Source: Halosimplex rubrum (lineage in GTDB: Archaea > Halobacteriota > Halobacteria > Halobacteriales > Haloarculaceae). From it: a DNA stretch of 64,000 nucleotides. The stretch lies in the NCBI RefSeq assembly GCF_013415885.1, contig NZ_CP058910.1, forward strand, positions 4,030,001-4,094,000. Reading direction: 5' to 3'. The notes below the pieces were generated by a model. It did not search any database and was not told the origin of the DNA. It worked only from the letters and a program-made list of their open reading frames with translations. Shown in pieces: positions 2,582 through 11,546 of this stretch; position 1 is the first letter of the stretch, and every line of letters starts with the position of its first letter. The position numbers and the translations under genes were made by a program.

Positions 2582-2590
2582 AACCGCCGG

Positions 2591-3109
2591 TCAGACGGCC
2601 GCCGCGACCGCGGGGGTGACGGCGGACTCGACCCAGGCGGCAACGACGAGCAGGGCGAGCGCGAGCAGAAATCGCTCCAGGCTCTCGACGACGGCCGAGC
2701 GCCGCAGCAGCGTCTCCTGGGTGCCGGTCAGGTACTGGACCACCTCCGCGGGCAGTCCGAGCCCCGCCGCGCCGGCGAGCACGAACGCCGGTAACTCGAA
2801 GACTCCGTGGGGCGCCACCAGCATCACCGACCGAATGACCCGTTCGCTGGCGGCGACCGCGTAGCCGATGATAAATCCGTTGTAACAGAGCGTCACGGCC
2901 GTCGCCACGCCGAACGTGACGCTCCCGGCGTACAGTATCGCGGCCACCGTGGCGTTGCGCGAGAGGAAAAACCACGCGGACCGCTCGCCGACCGACGGAA
3001 CGGGCACCGGCGTCGCCGTCCGCGAGAGAGCGCCACCCACGAGGAGTCCGAGGAAAAAGAGCGCAGCCGACGCCGCGAGCGGCCTGTCGAGACGTGCCGT
3101 CCTCGACAC
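2591..3109 (-). CDS. SpoIIM/DUF95-family membrane protein
   Basis: The 172-residue protein has about five membrane helices (near 11-28, 53-75, 76-90, 104-120 and 146-165). It carries the SpoIIM/DUF95 core motif as PHGVFELPAFVLAGAAG at residues 100-116, with the conserved Pro-His-Gly and Glu. DUF95 proteins occur as stand-alone membrane proteins, but they are also a standard part of circular bacteriocin clusters, where they act in maturation, secretion or immunity. Here it is the last gene of a three-gene minus-strand unit, 2 bases from a 64-residue membrane protein and following a hydrophobic peptide gene. That order fits a bacteriocin-like locus. Family assignment is firm; the role is inference. 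Confidence 0.8.
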   Translation of the reverse strand: MSRTARLDRPLAASAALFFLGLLVGGALSRTATPVPVPSVGERSAWFFLSRNATVAAILYAGSVTFGVATAVTLCYNGFIIGYAVAASERVIRSVMLVAPHGVFELPAFVLAGAAGLGLPAEVVQYLTGTQETLLRRSAVVESLERFLLALALLVVAAWVESAVTPAVAAAV

Positions 3110-3111
3110 GG

Positions 3112-3306
3112 TCAGTCGGCCCGCCAGTAGATGGCGGCGCCCGCCGCGACGAGTCCGGCGACGACCACCGGGATCGACGCGACGGCGACCGTTCGCTCGA
3201 CCGTGACGTAGTCGGACGCGACGTAGACGCCGGCGGTCGCTAGCGCGCCGGCCAGGATCGCGACGCTCGCGGCGTGTCGTTCGGTGCGTGCGTCTGTGTG
3301 ACTCAT
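3112..3306 (-). CDS. small two-helix membrane protein, possible immunity protein
   Basis: Sixty-four residues with two membrane helices, about 13-31 and 40-59, and short polar ends (start MSHTDARTERH, end YWRAD). It lies between the hydrophobic peptide gene (12 bases upstream) and the SpoIIM-like gene (2 bases downstream), so the three are almost certainly co-transcribed. Circular bacteriocin clusters usually include a small hydrophobic, often basic immunity protein of about this size. This one is neutral rather than strongly basic, so the immunity role is a guess from context only. Confidence 0.6.
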   Translation of the reverse strand: MSHTDARTERHAASVAILAGALATAGVYVASDYVTVERTVAVASIPVVVAGLVAAGAAIYWRAD

Positions 3307-3318
3307 TGCGGTGAGTCG

Positions 3319-3612
3319 TCAGGCACCCGCGGCGACTACCAGACCCGCGCCGCCGGTGACCGCACCGGCCAGCGCCAGGCCGCTCAGCGACGACGCGCTG
3401 ATACCGGCGCCGACGACGGCACCGGTCCCGGCCGAAGCGCCGCCCGCGGCCGCGCCGCTATCGGTGACGTAGTACGCCGCGTGGAGGAGCCCATCGGTCA
3501 CTCCCCCGAAGGCGACGGTCGCGACGACCCCGCCGATGGCCAGCGCGGTCAGAATCGCGACGAGTTTGTCCTCCGATACATCGAACTGCTTTGCGTTCAC
3601 GTTCGCGTTCAT
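3319..3612 (-). CDS. hydrophobic 97-aa peptide, candidate circular-bacteriocin-like precursor
   Basis: ATG 3612 is chosen over a GTG four codons upstream. The product has a short polar leader (MNANVNAKQFDVSEDK). About 81 very hydrophobic, Gly/Ala-rich residues follow, beginning LVAILTALAIGG, with little charge (two Asp, one His) and no Lys, Arg or Cys. A polar leader followed by a hydrophobic helical core and no cysteines matches circular bacteriocin precursors such as carnocyclin A, whose core also begins LVA and contains GGVTxGL (here GGVTDGL, residues 36-42). The two downstream genes are a tiny membrane protein and a SpoIIM/DUF95 protein, the usual partners. Other possibilities are a holin-like peptide or a small structural membrane protein. 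The gene is likely real; its function is inferred. Confidence 0.6.
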   Translation of the reverse strand: MNANVNAKQFDVSEDKLVAILTALAIGGVVATVAFGGVTDGLLHAAYYVTDSGAAAGGASAGTGAVVGAGISASSLSGLALAGAVTGGAGLVVAAGA

Positions 3613-3650
3613 ACGGGGTATCACCCACTGACGTGTGTTTCACCCATCAC

Positions 3651-3657
3651 AATAAAG
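3651..3657 (-). promoter_or_regulatory. probable TATA element of the 3612-2591 minus-strand unit
   Basis: On the minus strand the sequence reads CTTTATT about 39 bases before ATG 3612, within an AT-rich divergent intergenic stretch. It is a plausible archaeal TATA box giving a short 5' untranslated leader. This is inferred from position and composition only. Confidence 0.4.
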
Positions 3658-3678
3658 TCATTGGTGTTGAATGTATTT

Positions 3679-3691
3679 TAAAAATACTATA
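3679..3691 (+). promoter_or_regulatory. probable TATA element of the Yip1-like gene
   Basis: The stretch TTAAAAATACTAT lies 28-40 bases before ATG 3719, inside the most AT-rich part of the 106-base divergent spacer. It fits a haloarchaeal TATA box for a leaderless or nearly leaderless transcript. The divergent layout could allow co-regulation of both sides. Confidence 0.45.
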
Positions 3692-3718
3692 GGTAGAGTG
3701 TGATTAAACGGCGATTAC

Positions 3719-4399
3719 ATGACATTCGTAAATACTTTATTTACGTCACTCGACCGGTCCGGTGTGATCCGAGGGCTCCTCAGTGACCCGGACGACTTCT
3801 TCGCTCGCCAGTCCGCGGACCCGAGCTTCGCGGCGCCGGTCGCCGTCGTGTTCGTCGCGGGCGTCGCGATCAACCTGAACACGGTGCTGGTGTTACCGGC
3901 GCTCGCGGAGTCGCTCTCGGGGCGGAGCGAGACGATCGCACGCGTCGTGACGCTCGTCGGGGCCGCGGGGGGAACGCTGGGGATCTTCGGACTGTGGTTC
4001 ATCTACGCTGGGACGTTCCACACGATTTCGGTCTACTTCGACGGCGACGGCCGCTTCCGGACGCTCTTTCTCCTCACCGGGTGGGGCTTTCTCCCGCTGG
4101 TCCTGCAGGGAGTGTTCGGTGCGGCGATGTTCCAGTACACCCTTCAGCACGTGACCGTGCCCCAGGACCCCGCGCAGTTCGACTCGTTCGTCGGGGGGTT
4201 GAACGACCGACCGCCGCTGTTGGTCAGCTCCGCCACGCGGCTCGTCTTCCTGGCGTGGCAAGCGGTACTCTGGACGTTCGCCGTCAGTCACGGTCGTCGA
4301 CTGAGCGTCCGAGAAGCGCTCGCCACCGTCGGTCCGGCGGTGTTCGTGACCCTGGCGGTCAACGTCCACAGCGTCGCCGGCGCAGTGCTCGCCGGGTGA
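3719..4399 (+). CDS. Yip1-like membrane protein, 226 aa
   Basis: The protein has about five hydrophobic segments (near residues 38-62, 73-99, 115-138, 170-190 and 200-222). It starts with a soluble segment containing LLSDPDDFFARQ, the pattern of prokaryotic YIP1-domain proteins (an 'xxxP..FF' entry followed by a helical bundle). Yip1-like proteins are integral membrane proteins of unknown biochemical role. The start ATG follows an AT-rich promoter shared divergently with the hydrophobic-peptide unit. This makes it a candidate fifth-column partner of that locus, for example in export or membrane integrity; this is inference from adjacency. Confidence 0.65.
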   Translation: MTFVNTLFTSLDRSGVIRGLLSDPDDFFARQSADPSFAAPVAVVFVAGVAINLNTVLVLPALAESLSGRSETIARVVTLVGAAGGTLGIFGLWFIYAGTFHTISVYFDGDGRFRTLFLLTGWGFLPLVLQGVFGAAMFQYTLQHVTVPQDPAQFDSFVGGLNDRPPLLVSSATRLVFLAWQAVLWTFAVSHGRRLSVREALATVGPAVFVTLAVNVHSVAGAVLAG

Positions 4400-4425
4400 G
4401 ACGCCGGCGGCACTGCGGTCGAGTC

Positions 4426-5544
4426 TCAGAACCCGAACGCCCGGCGGTACTGGGGCGGCCCCGAGACCTCGTCGGTCGCGTCGAGTGCGTCGGCCGCCCG
4501 GAGCCCGAAGTACGGGTCACGGAGGAACTGCCGGCCGACGATGGCCAGGTCGGCGCGGTCGTTGGCGACGACCGCCTGGGCCTGCTCGGGCGTCGTGATC
4601 CCGCCGACCGTCCCGACGGCGATATCGCTCTCGGCCCCCCCGCAGACCGCCTCGGCCAGCGGAAGCTGGTAGTTCGGGCCGGTCTGCTCGGGCCACGAGC
4701 CCGGCGCGATGCCGCCGCTGGACACGTCGATCAGGTCCGCGCCGATCCCGGCGAGGCGGTCGGCCAGGCGCGCCGACTGCTCGGCGGTCCACGACTCGCG
4801 GTCGTCGAACCAGTCGGTGCCGGAGATCCGGACGAAGACGGGCTTGCCCTCGGGCCAGACCTCCCGCACCGCCTCGGTGACCTCCCGCGTGAGGCGGGTG
4901 CGGCCCTCGAAGTCGCCGCCGTAGTCGCCCTCGCGGTGGTTGGTCACCGGCGAGAGGAACTCGTGGAGCAGGTAGCCGTGGGCGGCGTGGACCTCGGCGA
5001 CCTCGAAGCCGGCGTCCCGGGCGCGCTCGGCGGCCGTCCTGAACGAGTCGATCACCTGCTCGATGTCGCCCTGGTCCATCTCGCGGGTCGGCGGCGCGTC
5101 GACGCGCTCGCCGTCGTCGTCCTCGTAGGGCCACGGGGTCCCGCTCGGACCGACGACCTCCCAGCCGCCGTCGTCGGGGTACAGCGGCCGGCTGCCCTCC
5201 CACGGACGGCTCTTGGAGGCCTTGCGGCCGGCGTGGGCCAGCTGGATGCCCGGGACGGCGCCCTGTTCTTTCACGAATCGCGTCGTCCGGGCGAGCGCGT
5301 CGGCCTGGTCGTCGTTCCAGATACCGAGGTCTTCGGGCGTGATCCGGCCGCGCTTCTCGACGGCGGTCGCCTCGGCCATCACGAGGCCGGCGCCGCCCAC
5401 CGCCCGCGAACCGAGGTGGACGTGGTGCCACTCGGTCGCGCGGCCGTCGCGGGCCTCACAGGAGTACTGGCACATCGGCGAGACCATCAGCCGGTTCGGT
5501 ATCGTGGTGTCCCGGAGTTCGAGCGCGTCGAAGAGATCCGTCAT
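4426..5544 (-). CDS. NADH:flavin oxidoreductase, old yellow enzyme family (YqjM-like)
   Basis: The 372-residue TIM barrel begins TDLFDALELRDTTIPNR and has the class-II OYE signature SPMCQYSCE, with Cys25 as the flavin-modulating cysteine of YqjM-type enzymes. It contains HAGRKA, the FMN/substrate-binding HAAHGYLLHEFLSP with following N-R-x-D-x-YGG, and the C-terminal phosphate-binding GRQFLRDP. These enzymes use FMN and NAD(P)H to reduce activated C=C bonds. The start at 5544 matches the family N-terminus and avoids a nine-residue extension from an upstream ATG. It appears to be monocistronic and is convergent with the Yip1-like gene. Confidence 0.92.
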   Translation of the reverse strand: MTDLFDALELRDTTIPNRLMVSPMCQYSCEARDGRATEWHHVHLGSRAVGGAGLVMAEATAVEKRGRITPEDLGIWNDDQADALARTTRFVKEQGAVPGIQLAHAGRKASKSRPWEGSRPLYPDDGGWEVVGPSGTPWPYEDDDGERVDAPPTREMDQGDIEQVIDSFRTAAERARDAGFEVAEVHAAHGYLLHEFLSPVTNHREGDYGGDFEGRTRLTREVTEAVREVWPEGKPVFVRISGTDWFDDRESWTAEQSARLADRLAGIGADLIDVSSGGIAPGSWPEQTGPNYQLPLAEAVCGGAESDIAVGTVGGITTPEQAQAVVANDRADLAIVGRQFLRDPYFGLRAADALDATDEVSGPPQYRRAFGF

Positions 5545-5638
5545 CACCCGGCCTAGCGACTGCCTGTTCAAGTATCGTCCGCCCGCCGCGTCGCTTTCCG
5601 GTTTCTCGATCGGGGCTGTCGGCCCGTGGACGCCGCCG

Positions 5639-7359: not shown

Positions 7360-8283
7360 CTACGTCGCCCACCGCGGTCGCGTCGGCACGTCGAAGCGGT
7401 CGGTGACGACCAGACCGGCGGCGAACAGCCCCGCGAGCGCGACCGGGACCCAGTTGCCGAAGGCGGCGTTGACGCCGCCCCAGAGGATCACGAAGCTCAC
7501 CATGTCGTCGAGCATGAACGGGCAGTCGTCCAGCCGCGCGAGCAGCGCCTCCCGGTCCAGCCCGAAGTCGAAGGCGCCGACGGCGACAGTCGCCGAGAGG
7601 ACCCAGCCGGCGTAGTTGCTCCAGGGGACACCGTAGAAGGCGCCGCCGCCGTCGTACGCCCAGAAGCCCAGCGCGACCGCGCCCGGGTCGAGCACCAGGT
7701 CGATCCCGACCACCGTCGCGACGACGACCGGGAGCCGGACCCACGGCGAGCGCGCCAGGTCGCCCAACAGCAGGAGACAGAGCAGGTAGCTGTTGAGGAC
7801 GAGCGGGAAGAAGAAGACGGGCAGGGCGAGCGGGACGCCGCCGAGCATCGGGCCCAGCGCGACGCCGTACTCGAAGGCGCCGTAGGGCCACCCCGTCGTG
7901 ACGCCGACGAACTCGATACCGTAGGCGTAGGCCGCGAGCGCGACCAGCGCGAGCGTCGCCTTTCGGTCGACCAGCGGTGCGACCCCCGCCACGAGCGGCA
8001 GCCGCATCACGACGACGCCGACGAGGACGAGCCAGGGGTTGAACGCCAGCGCCTCGGGGAGCCAGGCGAGCCGGGTCGCGAGCGCCGCGGGGAGCGCCGC
8101 GACGGCGGGGGCGAACCAGCCCAGGGCGCTGGCGAGCAGGAGGACGGCGCCGGTGACGGGGAAGACGACCGCGATGGTGAAGCGATTGGTCCGGACCAGT
8201 CGATCCAGGCGGGCCTCGACGCGGTCGCGGTCGAGCGCCCCGGCGGTGGGCCAGCCGGCCGACTCGACCCAGTCAGGCGCCAT
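7360..8283 (-). CDS. cruF: bisanhydrobacterioruberin hydratase
   Basis: The 307-residue protein has about seven membrane helices and CruF-type motifs such as YGIEFVGVTTGWPYGAF and DLVLDPGAVALGFW. CruF hydrates the terminal double bonds of the C50 intermediate bisanhydrobacterioruberin, the last step to bacterioruberin, the red membrane carotenoid of haloarchaea. It is the third gene of a minus-strand operon after crtD and lyeJ, overlapping lyeJ by 11 bases; this is the gene set characterised in Haloarcula japonica. The function assignment rests on family resemblance plus this conserved order. Confidence 0.9.
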   Translation of the reverse strand: MAPDWVESAGWPTAGALDRDRVEARLDRLVRTNRFTIAVVFPVTGAVLLLASALGWFAPAVAALPAALATRLAWLPEALAFNPWLVLVGVVVMRLPLVAGVAPLVDRKATLALVALAAYAYGIEFVGVTTGWPYGAFEYGVALGPMLGGVPLALPVFFFPLVLNSYLLCLLLLGDLARSPWVRLPVVVATVVGIDLVLDPGAVALGFWAYDGGGAFYGVPWSNYAGWVLSATVAVGAFDFGLDREALLARLDDCPFMLDDMVSFVILWGGVNAAFGNWVPVALAGLFAAGLVVTDRFDVPTRPRWAT

Positions 8284-9163
8284 CGACGATCACCCAGAGG
8301 CCGCCCATCGTCAGGAGCGTGCCGACGGCGGTGTTGAGGAGCGGGAACCACCAGTAGGCGCGGTCGACCGACACGTCGGTCAGCGCGACGGCGGCGGTGA
8401 ACACGGGGTAGACGGCGAGCAGGCCGCCCCAGTAGGGGTGGACCAGCCAGAAGACCGCCGCGGCGGCCGCCCAGACGACCGCGCAGTAGGCGTAGGTCCA
8501 CCGCTCGCCCAGCAGCGTCGCGGTCGTCTCGATGCCCGCGGCGCGGTCCGGTTCGATGTCCGGGACCGCCGAGAAGGTGTGCATCGCCATCGTCCACAGC
8601 CACGCGCCGGCGACCGCCAGCGCCGGCGGGAACGCGCCCGCGACGGTCGCGTACGCCACCACGCCCGGGAGGACGTACAGCCCGTTCGACAGCGAGTCGA
8701 GGACGGGCGTGGTCTTGAACCGGAACGGCGGCGCGCTGTACTGGACCGACAGGGCGAGGAAGGCCAGCATCGCGAGGACCGCCTCGGTCGGCAGGACCGG
8801 CAGTATCGCGACCCCGAGGACGCCGCTCGCCAGCACCGCGGCGACGACGGCGCGACTCCCCCGGTAGCGGACCTCCTTGTCCGCTTTCTTGGGGTTCTCC
8901 TCGTCGATGTCGGCGTCGAACACGTCGTTGACGCCGTAGAGGAAGACGTTCGCCGGGAGCAGGAAGTACGCGGCCAGCGCGACCGTCAGCGGCGTGAACA
9001 GCGCCGCAGTCGTGCGCGCGGCAAAGACGGTCCCGACCATCACCGGGCCGGCCAGGTACAGCCAGAACCGCGGCCGCGAGAGCCGGAGGAGATACCCGAC
9101 GGTGGTGTCGGGGGGCGCGAGCGCGCCGAGGCGAGCGGTCAGCGAGGCCATCGCGTCGGGCAT
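8273..9163 (-). CDS. lyeJ: lycopene elongase / 1,2-hydratase (UbiA prenyltransferase)
   Basis: The 296-residue protein has about eight membrane helices and the UbiA-family aspartate motif NDVFDADID near residue 78, followed by a second acidic motif, DIEPDRAAGIET. In haloarchaea LyeJ adds C5 prenyl units to both ends of lycopene and hydrates them, which commits carbon to C50 carotenoids. It sits between crtD (15 bases away) and cruF (11-base overlap). The start ATG 9163 gives MPDAMASLTARLG; a second Met four codons later is an alternative. Confidence 0.92.
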   Translation of the reverse strand: MPDAMASLTARLGALAPPDTTVGYLLRLSRPRFWLYLAGPVMVGTVFAARTTAALFTPLTVALAAYFLLPANVFLYGVNDVFDADIDEENPKKADKEVRYRGSRAVVAAVLASGVLGVAILPVLPTEAVLAMLAFLALSVQYSAPPFRFKTTPVLDSLSNGLYVLPGVVAYATVAGAFPPALAVAGAWLWTMAMHTFSAVPDIEPDRAAGIETTATLLGERWTYAYCAVVWAAAAAVFWLVHPYWGGLLAVYPVFTAAVALTDVSVDRAYWWFPLLNTAVGTLLTMGGLWVIVDGA

Positions 9164-9178
9164 ACTCGGTCGAGCGGC

Positions 9179-10732
9179 TTAGTTCACGTCCTCGACGAGC
9201 GCCTGTGCGGTGTGCTGGCCGCTGATGAGACACATCGGGACGCCGATTCCGGGCGTCGTGAACGAGCCGGTGAAGTACAGTCCGTCGACCGCATCCGAGC
9301 GGTTCGGCGGCCGCAGCAGTGCGGTCTGGGGAAGGGTGTGGGCCAGCCCCAGCGCCGTCCCAGCCGTCGCGTTGTAGCGGTCGACGAACTCGGAGACGCA
9401 GAACTCCTCCTCGAAGACGATGCGGTCCCGCAGATCCGTCCCGGTGTGCTCGGCCACGTCGTCGAGGATCTGTTCGCGGAACCGCTCGCGCTGGGCCGGC
9501 GAATCCTCCAGCCCGGGCGCGATGGGTACGAGGACGAACAGGTTGCTGTGGCCCTCGGGCGCGACGGTGTCGTCGGTCTTCGAGGGGACACAGAGGTAGT
9601 AGGCGGGTTCGTCGGGCCAGCCGGGCTCTTCGAATATCTGGTCGAAGTGGGGGTCCCAGTCGTCCGGGAGCACCAGCGTGTGGTGAGCGAGTTCGGGCAC
9701 GTCGCCCTCGACGCCGAGATAGAGGAGGTATGCCGAGGGGGCGTAGGTGCGGTCGTCCCAGTAGTCGGCGTCGTACTGGCGTTCGTGCTCGGGCAGCAGC
9801 TCCTGCTCGGCGTGGGCGTAGTCGGCGTTGACGACCACGCGGTCCGGTCGGCGCTCTTCGCCCGCATCGTCGACGACGAGGAAGCCCCGCTTGCGGCGGG
9901 TGATCTCCTCGACTTCGACGCCGGTCTCGAAGCTCACTCCGAGTTCACGGCAGAGGTCGACGAACGCGTCGACGACGACGCCGATGCCGCCCGGGTGGTT
10001 CCCGTCCTCGTCGGCCTCGTTGGCCACGGGGTAGTACACGCCCATGTTGAAATCGACGTGACTCATCATGTTGTACAGCGCCGGCGTGTTGCGGGGCGAG
10101 CCGCCCAGGAACACCAGCGTGTACTGCATGATCTGCTTGAGCTTGGGGTTCTCGAAGTACCCGTCGACGTGGCTCTGCATCGACCGCAGGAGTGTGAGCC
10201 CCACGGGCGCGGCGCGCATCACGTCCAGGTCGACCCAGTCCCGGAGCGAGGAGCGGTCCTCGTAGACGAACTTGTCCATCGCCGTCTCGTAGTGGCGTTC
10301 GCTGGTCGCGAGGTACTCGTCGAAGGCTTCGCCCGCCCCCGGCTCGATCGACTCGAACAGCTCGCGGTTTTTCGCCCGGTCGGCGGCGATGTCGACCCGC
10401 TCGCCGTCGCCGGCACCCACCCCTTCGCCCTTGAAGAAGACCCGGTAGTGCGGGTCGAGCCGTTCGAGGTCGTAGTAGTTGCCCGGGGCCTTCCCGAAGT
10501 GGCCGAAGAAGCGCTCGAACACGTCGGGCATGAGGTACCACGAGGGACCCATGTCGAAGCGAAAGCCCTCGGCTTCGAGGCGGCTGGCGCGGCCGCCCAG
10601 CTGGTCGTTTTTCTCCACGAGCGTCACGTCCGCGCCGGCGTCGGCGAGGTACGCAGCCGTCGAGAGACCGCCGACGCCGCCGCCGACGACCGTTACCGAC
10701 TCGCCGTCCGCCCGTCCCGATAGCCCTGCCAT
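9179..10732 (-). CDS. crtD: carotenoid 3,4-desaturase (phytoene-desaturase family)
   Basis: The 517-residue flavoprotein begins with a Rossmann FAD motif VVGGGVGGLSTAAYLA (residues 15-31) and the following Glu in LVEKNDQLGGR. It ends with the carotenoid-oxidoreductase signature around GLYFTGSFTTPGIGVPM and ISGQHTA. CrtD introduces the 3,4 double bonds in the C50 bacterioruberin pathway. ATG 10732 was chosen because it places the FAD loop 15 residues in; upstream in-frame codons overlap the divergent SDR promoter. It is the first gene of the crtD-lyeJ-cruF operon. Confidence 0.93.
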   Translation of the reverse strand: MAGLSGRADGESVTVVGGGVGGLSTAAYLADAGADVTLVEKNDQLGGRASRLEAEGFRFDMGPSWYLMPDVFERFFGHFGKAPGNYYDLERLDPHYRVFFKGEGVGAGDGERVDIAADRAKNRELFESIEPGAGEAFDEYLATSERHYETAMDKFVYEDRSSLRDWVDLDVMRAAPVGLTLLRSMQSHVDGYFENPKLKQIMQYTLVFLGGSPRNTPALYNMMSHVDFNMGVYYPVANEADEDGNHPGGIGVVVDAFVDLCRELGVSFETGVEVEEITRRKRGFLVVDDAGEERRPDRVVVNADYAHAEQELLPEHERQYDADYWDDRTYAPSAYLLYLGVEGDVPELAHHTLVLPDDWDPHFDQIFEEPGWPDEPAYYLCVPSKTDDTVAPEGHSNLFVLVPIAPGLEDSPAQRERFREQILDDVAEHTGTDLRDRIVFEEEFCVSEFVDRYNATAGTALGLAHTLPQTALLRPPNRSDAVDGLYFTGSFTTPGIGVPMCLISGQHTAQALVEDVN

Positions 10733-10859
10733 TACCCGCTTGTGGGTGCCCACGACTGAAAAAGGGGGTGCCCAACCGGTGCGGTCGGCGGGTCGCGCGC
10801 CGCTCGCCCGCCGTCGCCTCGTCGGGACGCTCATGACGGACCGGTCCCAACGGCGCGGT

Positions 10860-11546
10860 ATGGACGGAGCGACGGTCGTCGTCACGGGCGGAACGCGGGG
10901 GATCGGCAGGGCGACGGTCGAGGCGGTCGCCGACGCGCGCGCACACGTCGTCACCTGTGCCCGCGACGCCGACGCGCTCGACGACCTCGCCGAACGGATC
11001 CGCGCGTCGGGCGGGACGATCACGACCCAGCGGGCCGACGTGCGCGACGAGTTCGACGCCGAGCGGCTACTGGAGACCGCGGCCCGCGAGGGCGGGGCCG
11101 TCGACGCCGTCGTCGCCAACGCCGGCGTCTACCACGGCGACGCCGGCGAGACGCCGATCGACCGCGAGTCCTACGCGGCGTTCGACGACACGATGCGGAC
11201 GAACGCCCGCGGCGTCTTCGCGACGTTTCGCGAGGCCCGGCCCCACCTCGCCGACGACGCGCGCCTGCTCGCGCTCTCGGGCGGAATCGCGCGCGAAGCC
11301 CGCGCGGGCTTCGGCGCCTACGCCGTCTCGAAGGCCACAGTCGAGGCCGTCGTCCGCCAGTTCGCCGCCGACACCGAGTGGCCGGCGGCCGTCGTCGACC
11401 CCGGCGCCGTCGCCACCGACCTGACGGGCGGCCGCGGTACCGACCCCGAACGGGCCGCCGATCTGGTGGTCTGGGCCGCCCGCGACGCCGACCCCGACCG
11501 ACTCGACGGGAGCGTCCTCGACCGCCGCGCCATGCGCGAGGCCTGA
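10860..11546 (+). CDS. short-chain dehydrogenase/reductase
   Basis: The 228-residue protein has the SDR cofactor motif TGGTRGIG at residues 9-16, the structural NAGV (in VVANAGVYHG), a catalytic Ser in LALSGG, and YxxxK in YAVSK. It is somewhat shorter than usual (about 250). These enzymes use NAD(P)H to oxidise or reduce alcohols or ketones; the substrate is not evident. ATG 10860 is preferred over an in-frame ATG nine codons upstream because it starts directly at the first beta strand. It is divergent from crtD, with a 127-base spacer. Confidence 0.88.
   Translation: MDGATVVVTGGTRGIGRATVEAVADARAHVVTCARDADALDDLAERIRASGGTITTQRADVRDEFDAERLLETAAREGGAVDAVVANAGVYHGDAGETPIDRESYAAFDDTMRTNARGVFATFREARPHLADDARLLALSGGIAREARAGFGAYAVSKATVEAVVRQFAADTEWPAAVVDPGAVATDLTGGRGTDPERAADLVVWAARDADPDRLDGSVLDRRAMREA

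Follow-up and report, generated by a model that had tools for sequence, protein, structure and literature searches.

The window analysed here is a stretch of 64 kb from Halosimplex rubrum (4,030,001-4,094,000 of a single-contig genome of 4.48 Mb), and it holds an inserted cassette of four genes, all of them present where the earlier note had placed its open reading frames. The features are as follows, in positions of the window.

2583..4424, no strand: inserted cassette of about 1.84 kb; blastn similarity to three same-genus genomes (G004, G003 and G007) ends at about 2564-2572, the end of the esterase gene, and restarts at 4425-4428
2591..3109, minus strand: SpoIIM/DUF95 membrane protein of 172 aa, cassette type (PF01944, E 9e-22; outside the housekeeping clade in the tree)
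3112..3306, minus strand: two-helix membrane protein of 64 aa, candidate immunity protein (two hydrophobic segments; counterparts at L133 and L136; co-variation with the core)
3319..3612, minus strand: precursor-like peptide of 97 aa, with a putative leader at about residues 1-37 and a Gly/Ala-rich core at about 38-97
3319..3483, minus strand: coding sequence of the conserved core (residues 44-97, HAAYYVTDSG...VVAAGA) with its stop codon (homology to the L207 core)
3613..3718, no strand: AT-rich divergent intergenic promoter region of 106 nt, containing GTATTTTTAAAATAC (minus strand), a near-palindromic TATA element
3719..4399, plus strand: Yip1-family membrane protein of 226 aa (PF04893, E 4.1e-18)

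The three minus-strand genes form one tight operon, with 12 nt between the 97-aa and 64-aa genes and 2 nt between the latter and SpoIIM, and Yip1 is divergent from it. The GC content is 53% in 3601-3900 compared with about 70% around it. All four products are membrane proteins judging from their sequences, and the Pfam matches, together with the hydrophobic segments of the 64-aa protein (residues 12-30 and 41-59), bear out the earlier note's identification of SpoIIM/DUF95, a divergent Yip1-like gene and a two-helix small protein. The Yip1 product also weakly resembles the YknW family (E 9.6e-4, under the family cut-off). YknW is thought to act in resistance. Elsewhere in the window, at 7360-11119, a set resembling C50 carotenoid (bacterioruberin) genes was observed, comprising a membrane protein, a prenyltransferase-like and a phytoene-desaturase-like protein, recognized by their look alone.

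The genes flanking the insert encode an esterase and an NADH:flavin oxidoreductase (Pfam), and in the congeners they are convergent neighbours separated by 44 bp in G004, 19 bp in G003 and 138 bp in G007. The insert holds exactly four genes, for SpoIIM, the 64-aa protein, the 97-aa peptide and Yip1, and as it holds only these and its site is unoccupied in three congeners, it is a self-contained mobile cassette, which moves as a unit. A fourth congener (G006) carries around 2.4 kb of unrelated genes in the same gap, and a search of 58 related genomes found no copy of the 97-aa peptide. Within the 138-bp spacer of G007 (L223, G007:C18), the long inverted repeat ATACGGAGTATCGCAAG ... CTTGCAATACTCCGTAT could represent a small mobile repeat.

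Membership of a known peptide family was rejected for the 97-aa product, for which Pfam gave nothing up to E 10, NCBIfam no relative and a PDB sequence search no hit; the family HMM check proposed in the earlier note likewise came back empty for the peptide with the circular-bacteriocin models PF09221 and TIGR03651. Structure prediction from the single sequence of the peptide alone was uninformative (pLDDT 54). The gene is not a chance reading frame, because an ortholog with 67% identity over 95 residues and saturated synonymous sites (pS 0.78, pN 0.22) is found in another haloarchaeal family (G226, L133), where the 64-aa and SpoIIM genes have been kept alongside it in the same order (56% and 55% identity). 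These three genes are under purifying selection between the two genomes, and the final 31 residues of the peptides are almost identical. No Yip1 was detectable in G226. In a further haloarchaeon (G213, L136), SpoIIM and a 66-aa counterpart of the 64-aa gene (44% protein identity) are kept, whereas of a precursor only an open frame lacking a start is left, encoding the C terminus of a similar core. This we read as a decayed precursor gene, although a sequencing error is possible. In two loci, the small-protein and SpoIIM genes are retained and the precursor only in truncated form. At L219 (G517:C10, about 3950-5619) a DUF104/VapB-like frame replaces the precursor start, leaving a core-like C-terminal end, LGLIKASDILYLAELAGVASAGVGAAALVAAGIGVLA, with intact small-protein and SpoIIM genes.

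Scanning of genome contigs with the peptide gave no match and with the window SpoIIM only distant relatives. Profile searches with the cassette-type SpoIIM, followed by neighbourhood inspection, revealed cassettes of like anatomy with different peptides in G017 (two), G022, G003, G206 (two) and G208 (four complete). The synteny survey suggested in the earlier note thus found the anatomy recurring in further haloarchaea, and the pattern which that note had named as fatal to its idea, a peptide conserved beside unrelated genes without DUF95, was not encountered, SpoIIM/DUF95 being present in the L133 ortholog cluster as well. Some of the relatives (L063, L131 and L066) have two cysteines in the core, a potential disulfide. 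Other features of these loci were also recorded. In the small genome of G208 (L128, L129 and L130; G208:C1:12000-72000), five cassette-like SpoIIM genes and four complete cassettes with differing cores lie within about 50 kb. In G022, a CPBP/Rce1-type membrane protease (L066:4807-5586; PF02517, E 2.7e-14), a candidate leader peptidase, is encoded two genes upstream of the cassette Yip1. A Cys-rich ORF of 64 aa (L064:4322-4516 in G041; MTGPTCARCHCDGAWTCGRCAWEVVCC...) lies near a housekeeping SpoIIM/Yip1 pair.

A phylum-wide search also revealed cassettes in a family designated f21, with one to four copies per genome among the matches listed. We take f21 to be probably Archaeoglobaceae, a hyperthermophile family, in part since cassettes of this kind have been described from Archaeoglobi by Makarova and colleagues. 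Behind a common leader (consensus VKxWNEEVxKWLAVGMCLAMVGMAVMP), the 18 f21 peptides, which come from 12 genomes, have cores of 53-74 aa. Mean pairwise identity is 0.52 in the leader and 0.25 in the core (around the level of Gly/Ala-rich sequence), and in 147 of the 153 pairs the leaders are more alike than the cores. The core of one f21 peptide (L207:8543-8809) is clearly similar to the window core (Smith-Waterman score 125, z 10.7, none of 5000 shuffles above 83) compared with z 2.3 for the two leaders, so one core lies behind different leaders in the haloarchaeon and the f21 archaeon, and a single f21 leader precedes many cores. Bacteriocin and other RiPP precursors behave in this manner. 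In f21 genomes (L204, L207, L208, L213 and L215), cassettes are often found beside genes that by eye resemble toxin-antitoxin genes (DUF104/VapB, PIN and HicAB).

This modularity of leader and core places the window core from about residue 38-45 onward, and not from Leu17, where the earlier note had expected it to start. Cleavage at Leu17 is unlikely, and was discarded on two grounds: no other part of the peptide is as strongly hydrophobic as residues 17-35, and the homology to the L207 core begins at residue 44. A start near residue 38-45 is the better fit. The polar leader of that note was accordingly half right, since the hydrophobic segment lies on the leader side in relatives, and its description of a core free of Lys, Arg and Cys holds, residue 16 being the final Lys and the whole peptide having neither Arg nor Cys. 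The core would thus be around 55-60 aa long, with a pI of about 4-5; circular bacteriocins are recognized by a cleavable leader and a hydrophobic core of about 58-70 aa.

Among 23 cassettes, the similarity of the cores was correlated with that of the small proteins (Mantel r 0.71, p 0.0005; within f21 alone, r 0.63, p 0.008), a co-variation which depends mainly on three orthologous cassette pairs. The three pairs with clearly similar cores within a lineage (window/G226, G017/G208 and L211/L214) are the same three that have similar small proteins. SpoIIM was recognisably related in every closely examined pair, with cores and small proteins mostly unrelated. For the haloarchaeal cassettes, SpoIIM similarity tracks core similarity too (r 0.94), and the window and L207 have similar cores but unrelated small proteins (z -0.3). 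The co-variation points to the small protein as a cognate partner of the core, most simply a predicted immunity protein, and to SpoIIM as the common machinery. The SpoIIM tree groups all 14 housekeeping proteins in a single starred clade (97/95). The cassette proteins lie outside it, and those from a Priestia plasmid and from plasmid pMETHO01 are placed among them; H_G208e and H_G206b, both haloarchaeal, adjoin the housekeeping clade, and several branches are long.

Those plasmids were among the four records returned by a tblastn search of 72,556 plasmids with the window SpoIIM. The Priestia megaterium plasmid encodes four precursors annotated as circularin A/uberolysin family, all exceeding the TIGR03651 and PF09221 cut-offs, together with Yip1, SpoIIM and ABC genes. 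The pMETHO01 plasmid of Methanomethylovorans hollandica carries a divergent Yip1, two hydrophobic peptides of 66 aa (95% mutually identical) that look short-leadered, an 80-aa membrane protein and SpoIIM, with ABC genes near the cluster. When profiles of the window peptide were compared with those of the Priestia and methanogen peptides, no signal emerged, the alignments being too shallow, and the 97-aa peptide had no match in the plasmid collection searched. The SpoIIM matches on haloarchaeal plasmids (Halostagnicola and Halomicrococcus) were rejected as cassettes; these proteins are long (around 510-520 aa) and are annotated without a peptide neighbour.

DUF95 is regarded as class-defining for circular bacteriocins (PMC13289728; PMC11580447), and its removal in leucocyclicin Q is reported to leave the mature circular peptide trapped in the cell (cited in PMC7132975). 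Yip1 is frequent in circular-bacteriocin clusters (PMC8659200; PMC8534725) and is also found in leaderless-bacteriocin clusters (PMC11580447). The window cassette shares with the clusters of cerecyclin and Priestia megaterium p2 a small hydrophobic precursor, a small membrane protein, SpoIIM/DUF95 and an adjacent Yip1. The logic of precursor, small membrane partner, SpoIIM and Yip1, largely as proposed in the earlier note, recurs at independent loci and parallels annotated bacterial clusters. Unlike them, the cassette has no ABC ATPase, and its peptide has a long hydrophobic leader and a neutral to acidic, very Gly/Ala-rich core. Surveyed bacterial clusters always encode an ATP-binding or transporter protein (PMC8534725; PMC8659200), whereas no Walker A motif with an ABC signature occurs in a 14-kb stretch around the cassette, as the earlier note had stated. 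The same motif scan of the fetched haloarchaeal cassette surroundings found only a 989-aa ABC-like protein in L130; ABC ATPases are occasional near f21 cassettes, and the one at L215 appears to belong to an amino-acid transporter.

The group ii circular bacteriocins (gassericin A, acidocin B, butyrivibriocin AR10 and plantaricyclin A) resemble the window peptide in their long leader, low pI and highly hydrophobic core, which is of similar length (PMC6131525), although no sequence relationship is detectable and their clusters have transporters. TIGR03651 had no match in 325 Halobacteriota genomes, but control genomes were equally blank, so this does not demonstrate absence. As no precursor matches any bacteriocin model, the cassette was not filed under circular bacteriocins, and formal membership of that family fails on both the absent ABC ATPase and the absent PF09221/TIGR03651 match. 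It appears to work like a circular-bacteriocin cluster with one defining feature missing. Kinship with the halocin C8 family (TIGR04449), likewise haloarchaeal antimicrobial peptides, was rejected: the peptide has no TIGR04449 match up to E 10, a TIGR04449 search of G000 was blank, and none of 30 halocin-C8 loci (±1.5 kb) contained a cassette SpoIIM or Yip1.

The best explanation, to which we give a probability of around 0.6, is that the cassette encodes a secreted antagonistic peptide with cognate immunity, whether or not the peptide forms a ring. The 97-aa protein would be the precursor, with the hydrophobic stretch at its N terminus, up to about residue 37, serving as a leader into or through the membrane, and the released Gly/Ala-rich core of about 55-60 aa would act on the membranes of related archaea. 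The 64-aa protein may shield the producer from its own core, and SpoIIM, probably with Yip1, may form a shared membrane apparatus for maturation, export or protection, like DUF95 in bacterial circular bacteriocins. On one reading, the long hydrophobic leader could take over export in place of the ABC transporter. Exchange of the peptide with the machinery kept is what might be expected of weapons between microbes. The weakest step is head-to-tail closure of the core, which is possible but which we consider somewhat doubtful. The observation made in the earlier note therefore stands, and its interpretation is most likely right in kind, with the chemistry unproven.

A linear form of such a peptide, cleaved from its leader as in colicin V/class II or SDP-like peptides and with Yip1 acting in resistance, is counted within that probability and appears unlikely. 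It would suit the weak YknW affinity of Yip1, the occurrence of Yip1 in leaderless-bacteriocin clusters (PMC11580447), the lack of any cyclase or ABC ATPase and the paired core cysteines in L063, L131 and L066; the window core, however, has no Cys, and the SpoIIM/DUF95 protein is considered the mark of the circular class (PMC13289728; PMC11580447).

The gene set has been described before under a different reading. Makarova and colleagues reported in 2014 clusters of arCOG01996 (DUF95) in Archaeoglobi, Pyrococci and methanogens as a possible membrane-associated defence (PMC4158269), and in 2015 proposed a role in membrane remodelling or the formation of vesicles for the SpoIIM-Yip1-small-membrane-protein cassette (PMC5898192). 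In gene set and arrangement, the arCOG01996-arCOG02054-arCOG09673 cassette (SpoIIM, Yip1 and small fast-evolving membrane proteins) is like that of the window, where anatomy and tree likewise give a non-housekeeping SpoIIM beside Yip1 and small variable membrane proteins. It differs in being read as defence or membrane remodelling, with the leader/core structure of the precursor unrecognised; in these papers, as searched, the small proteins are nowhere called bacteriocin precursors, and the lineages given are Archaeoglobi, Methanococci and Thermococci, with Halobacteria not among them (PMC5898192; PMC4158269). The earlier note's statement that no archaeal example has been characterised is consistent with the literature consulted, although some components of the cassette had been reported from other archaea under a different interpretation (PMC4158269; PMC5898192).

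On that published reading (PMC5898192), the peptide and the 64-aa protein would be permanent small subunits of a membrane-remodelling or vesicle complex, with no secretion. The membrane nature of all four products and the role of eukaryotic Yip1 in vesicle traffic would agree with this. We nevertheless consider it improbable, as a patchy inserted cassette missing in congeners, tandem copies with unrelated cores behind one leader, and loci with truncated precursors and retained partners are not as expected of a housekeeping complex. An intracellular toxin-antitoxin or abortive-infection cassette, in which a membrane-damaging peptide toxin is checked by the 64-aa and SpoIIM proteins, is very doubtful: the cassette is mobile, compact and patchy, and several f21 copies lie beside VapB/DUF104-, PIN- and HicAB-like genes, but such pairs need no leaders, and the constant leader, swapped cores and SpoIIM/Yip1 set suit an exported precursor family better.

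Within the secreted-peptide reading, it may tentatively be proposed, at less than even confidence, that these cassettes represent a large unrecognised family of archaeal circular bacteriocins free of ABC transporters, with hydrophobic leaders instead, the cores being swapped among leaders and between salt-loving and hyperthermophilic archaea, each with its own immunity protein, in a mobile cassette of four genes. No circular archaeal bacteriocin is described in the literature searched. The 2019 mBio survey of archaeal antimicrobial peptides by Makarova and colleagues may already contain the bacteriocin idea.

Little is known of antimicrobial peptides in archaea. If the proposal is true, a gene set read as membrane remodelling would become a wide bacteriocin system, extending even to hyperthermophiles. 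How bacteria join the two ends of such peptides is, to our knowledge, an unsolved problem, and the transporter-free version with four genes would be a minimal system in which to find the membrane protein that closes the ring.
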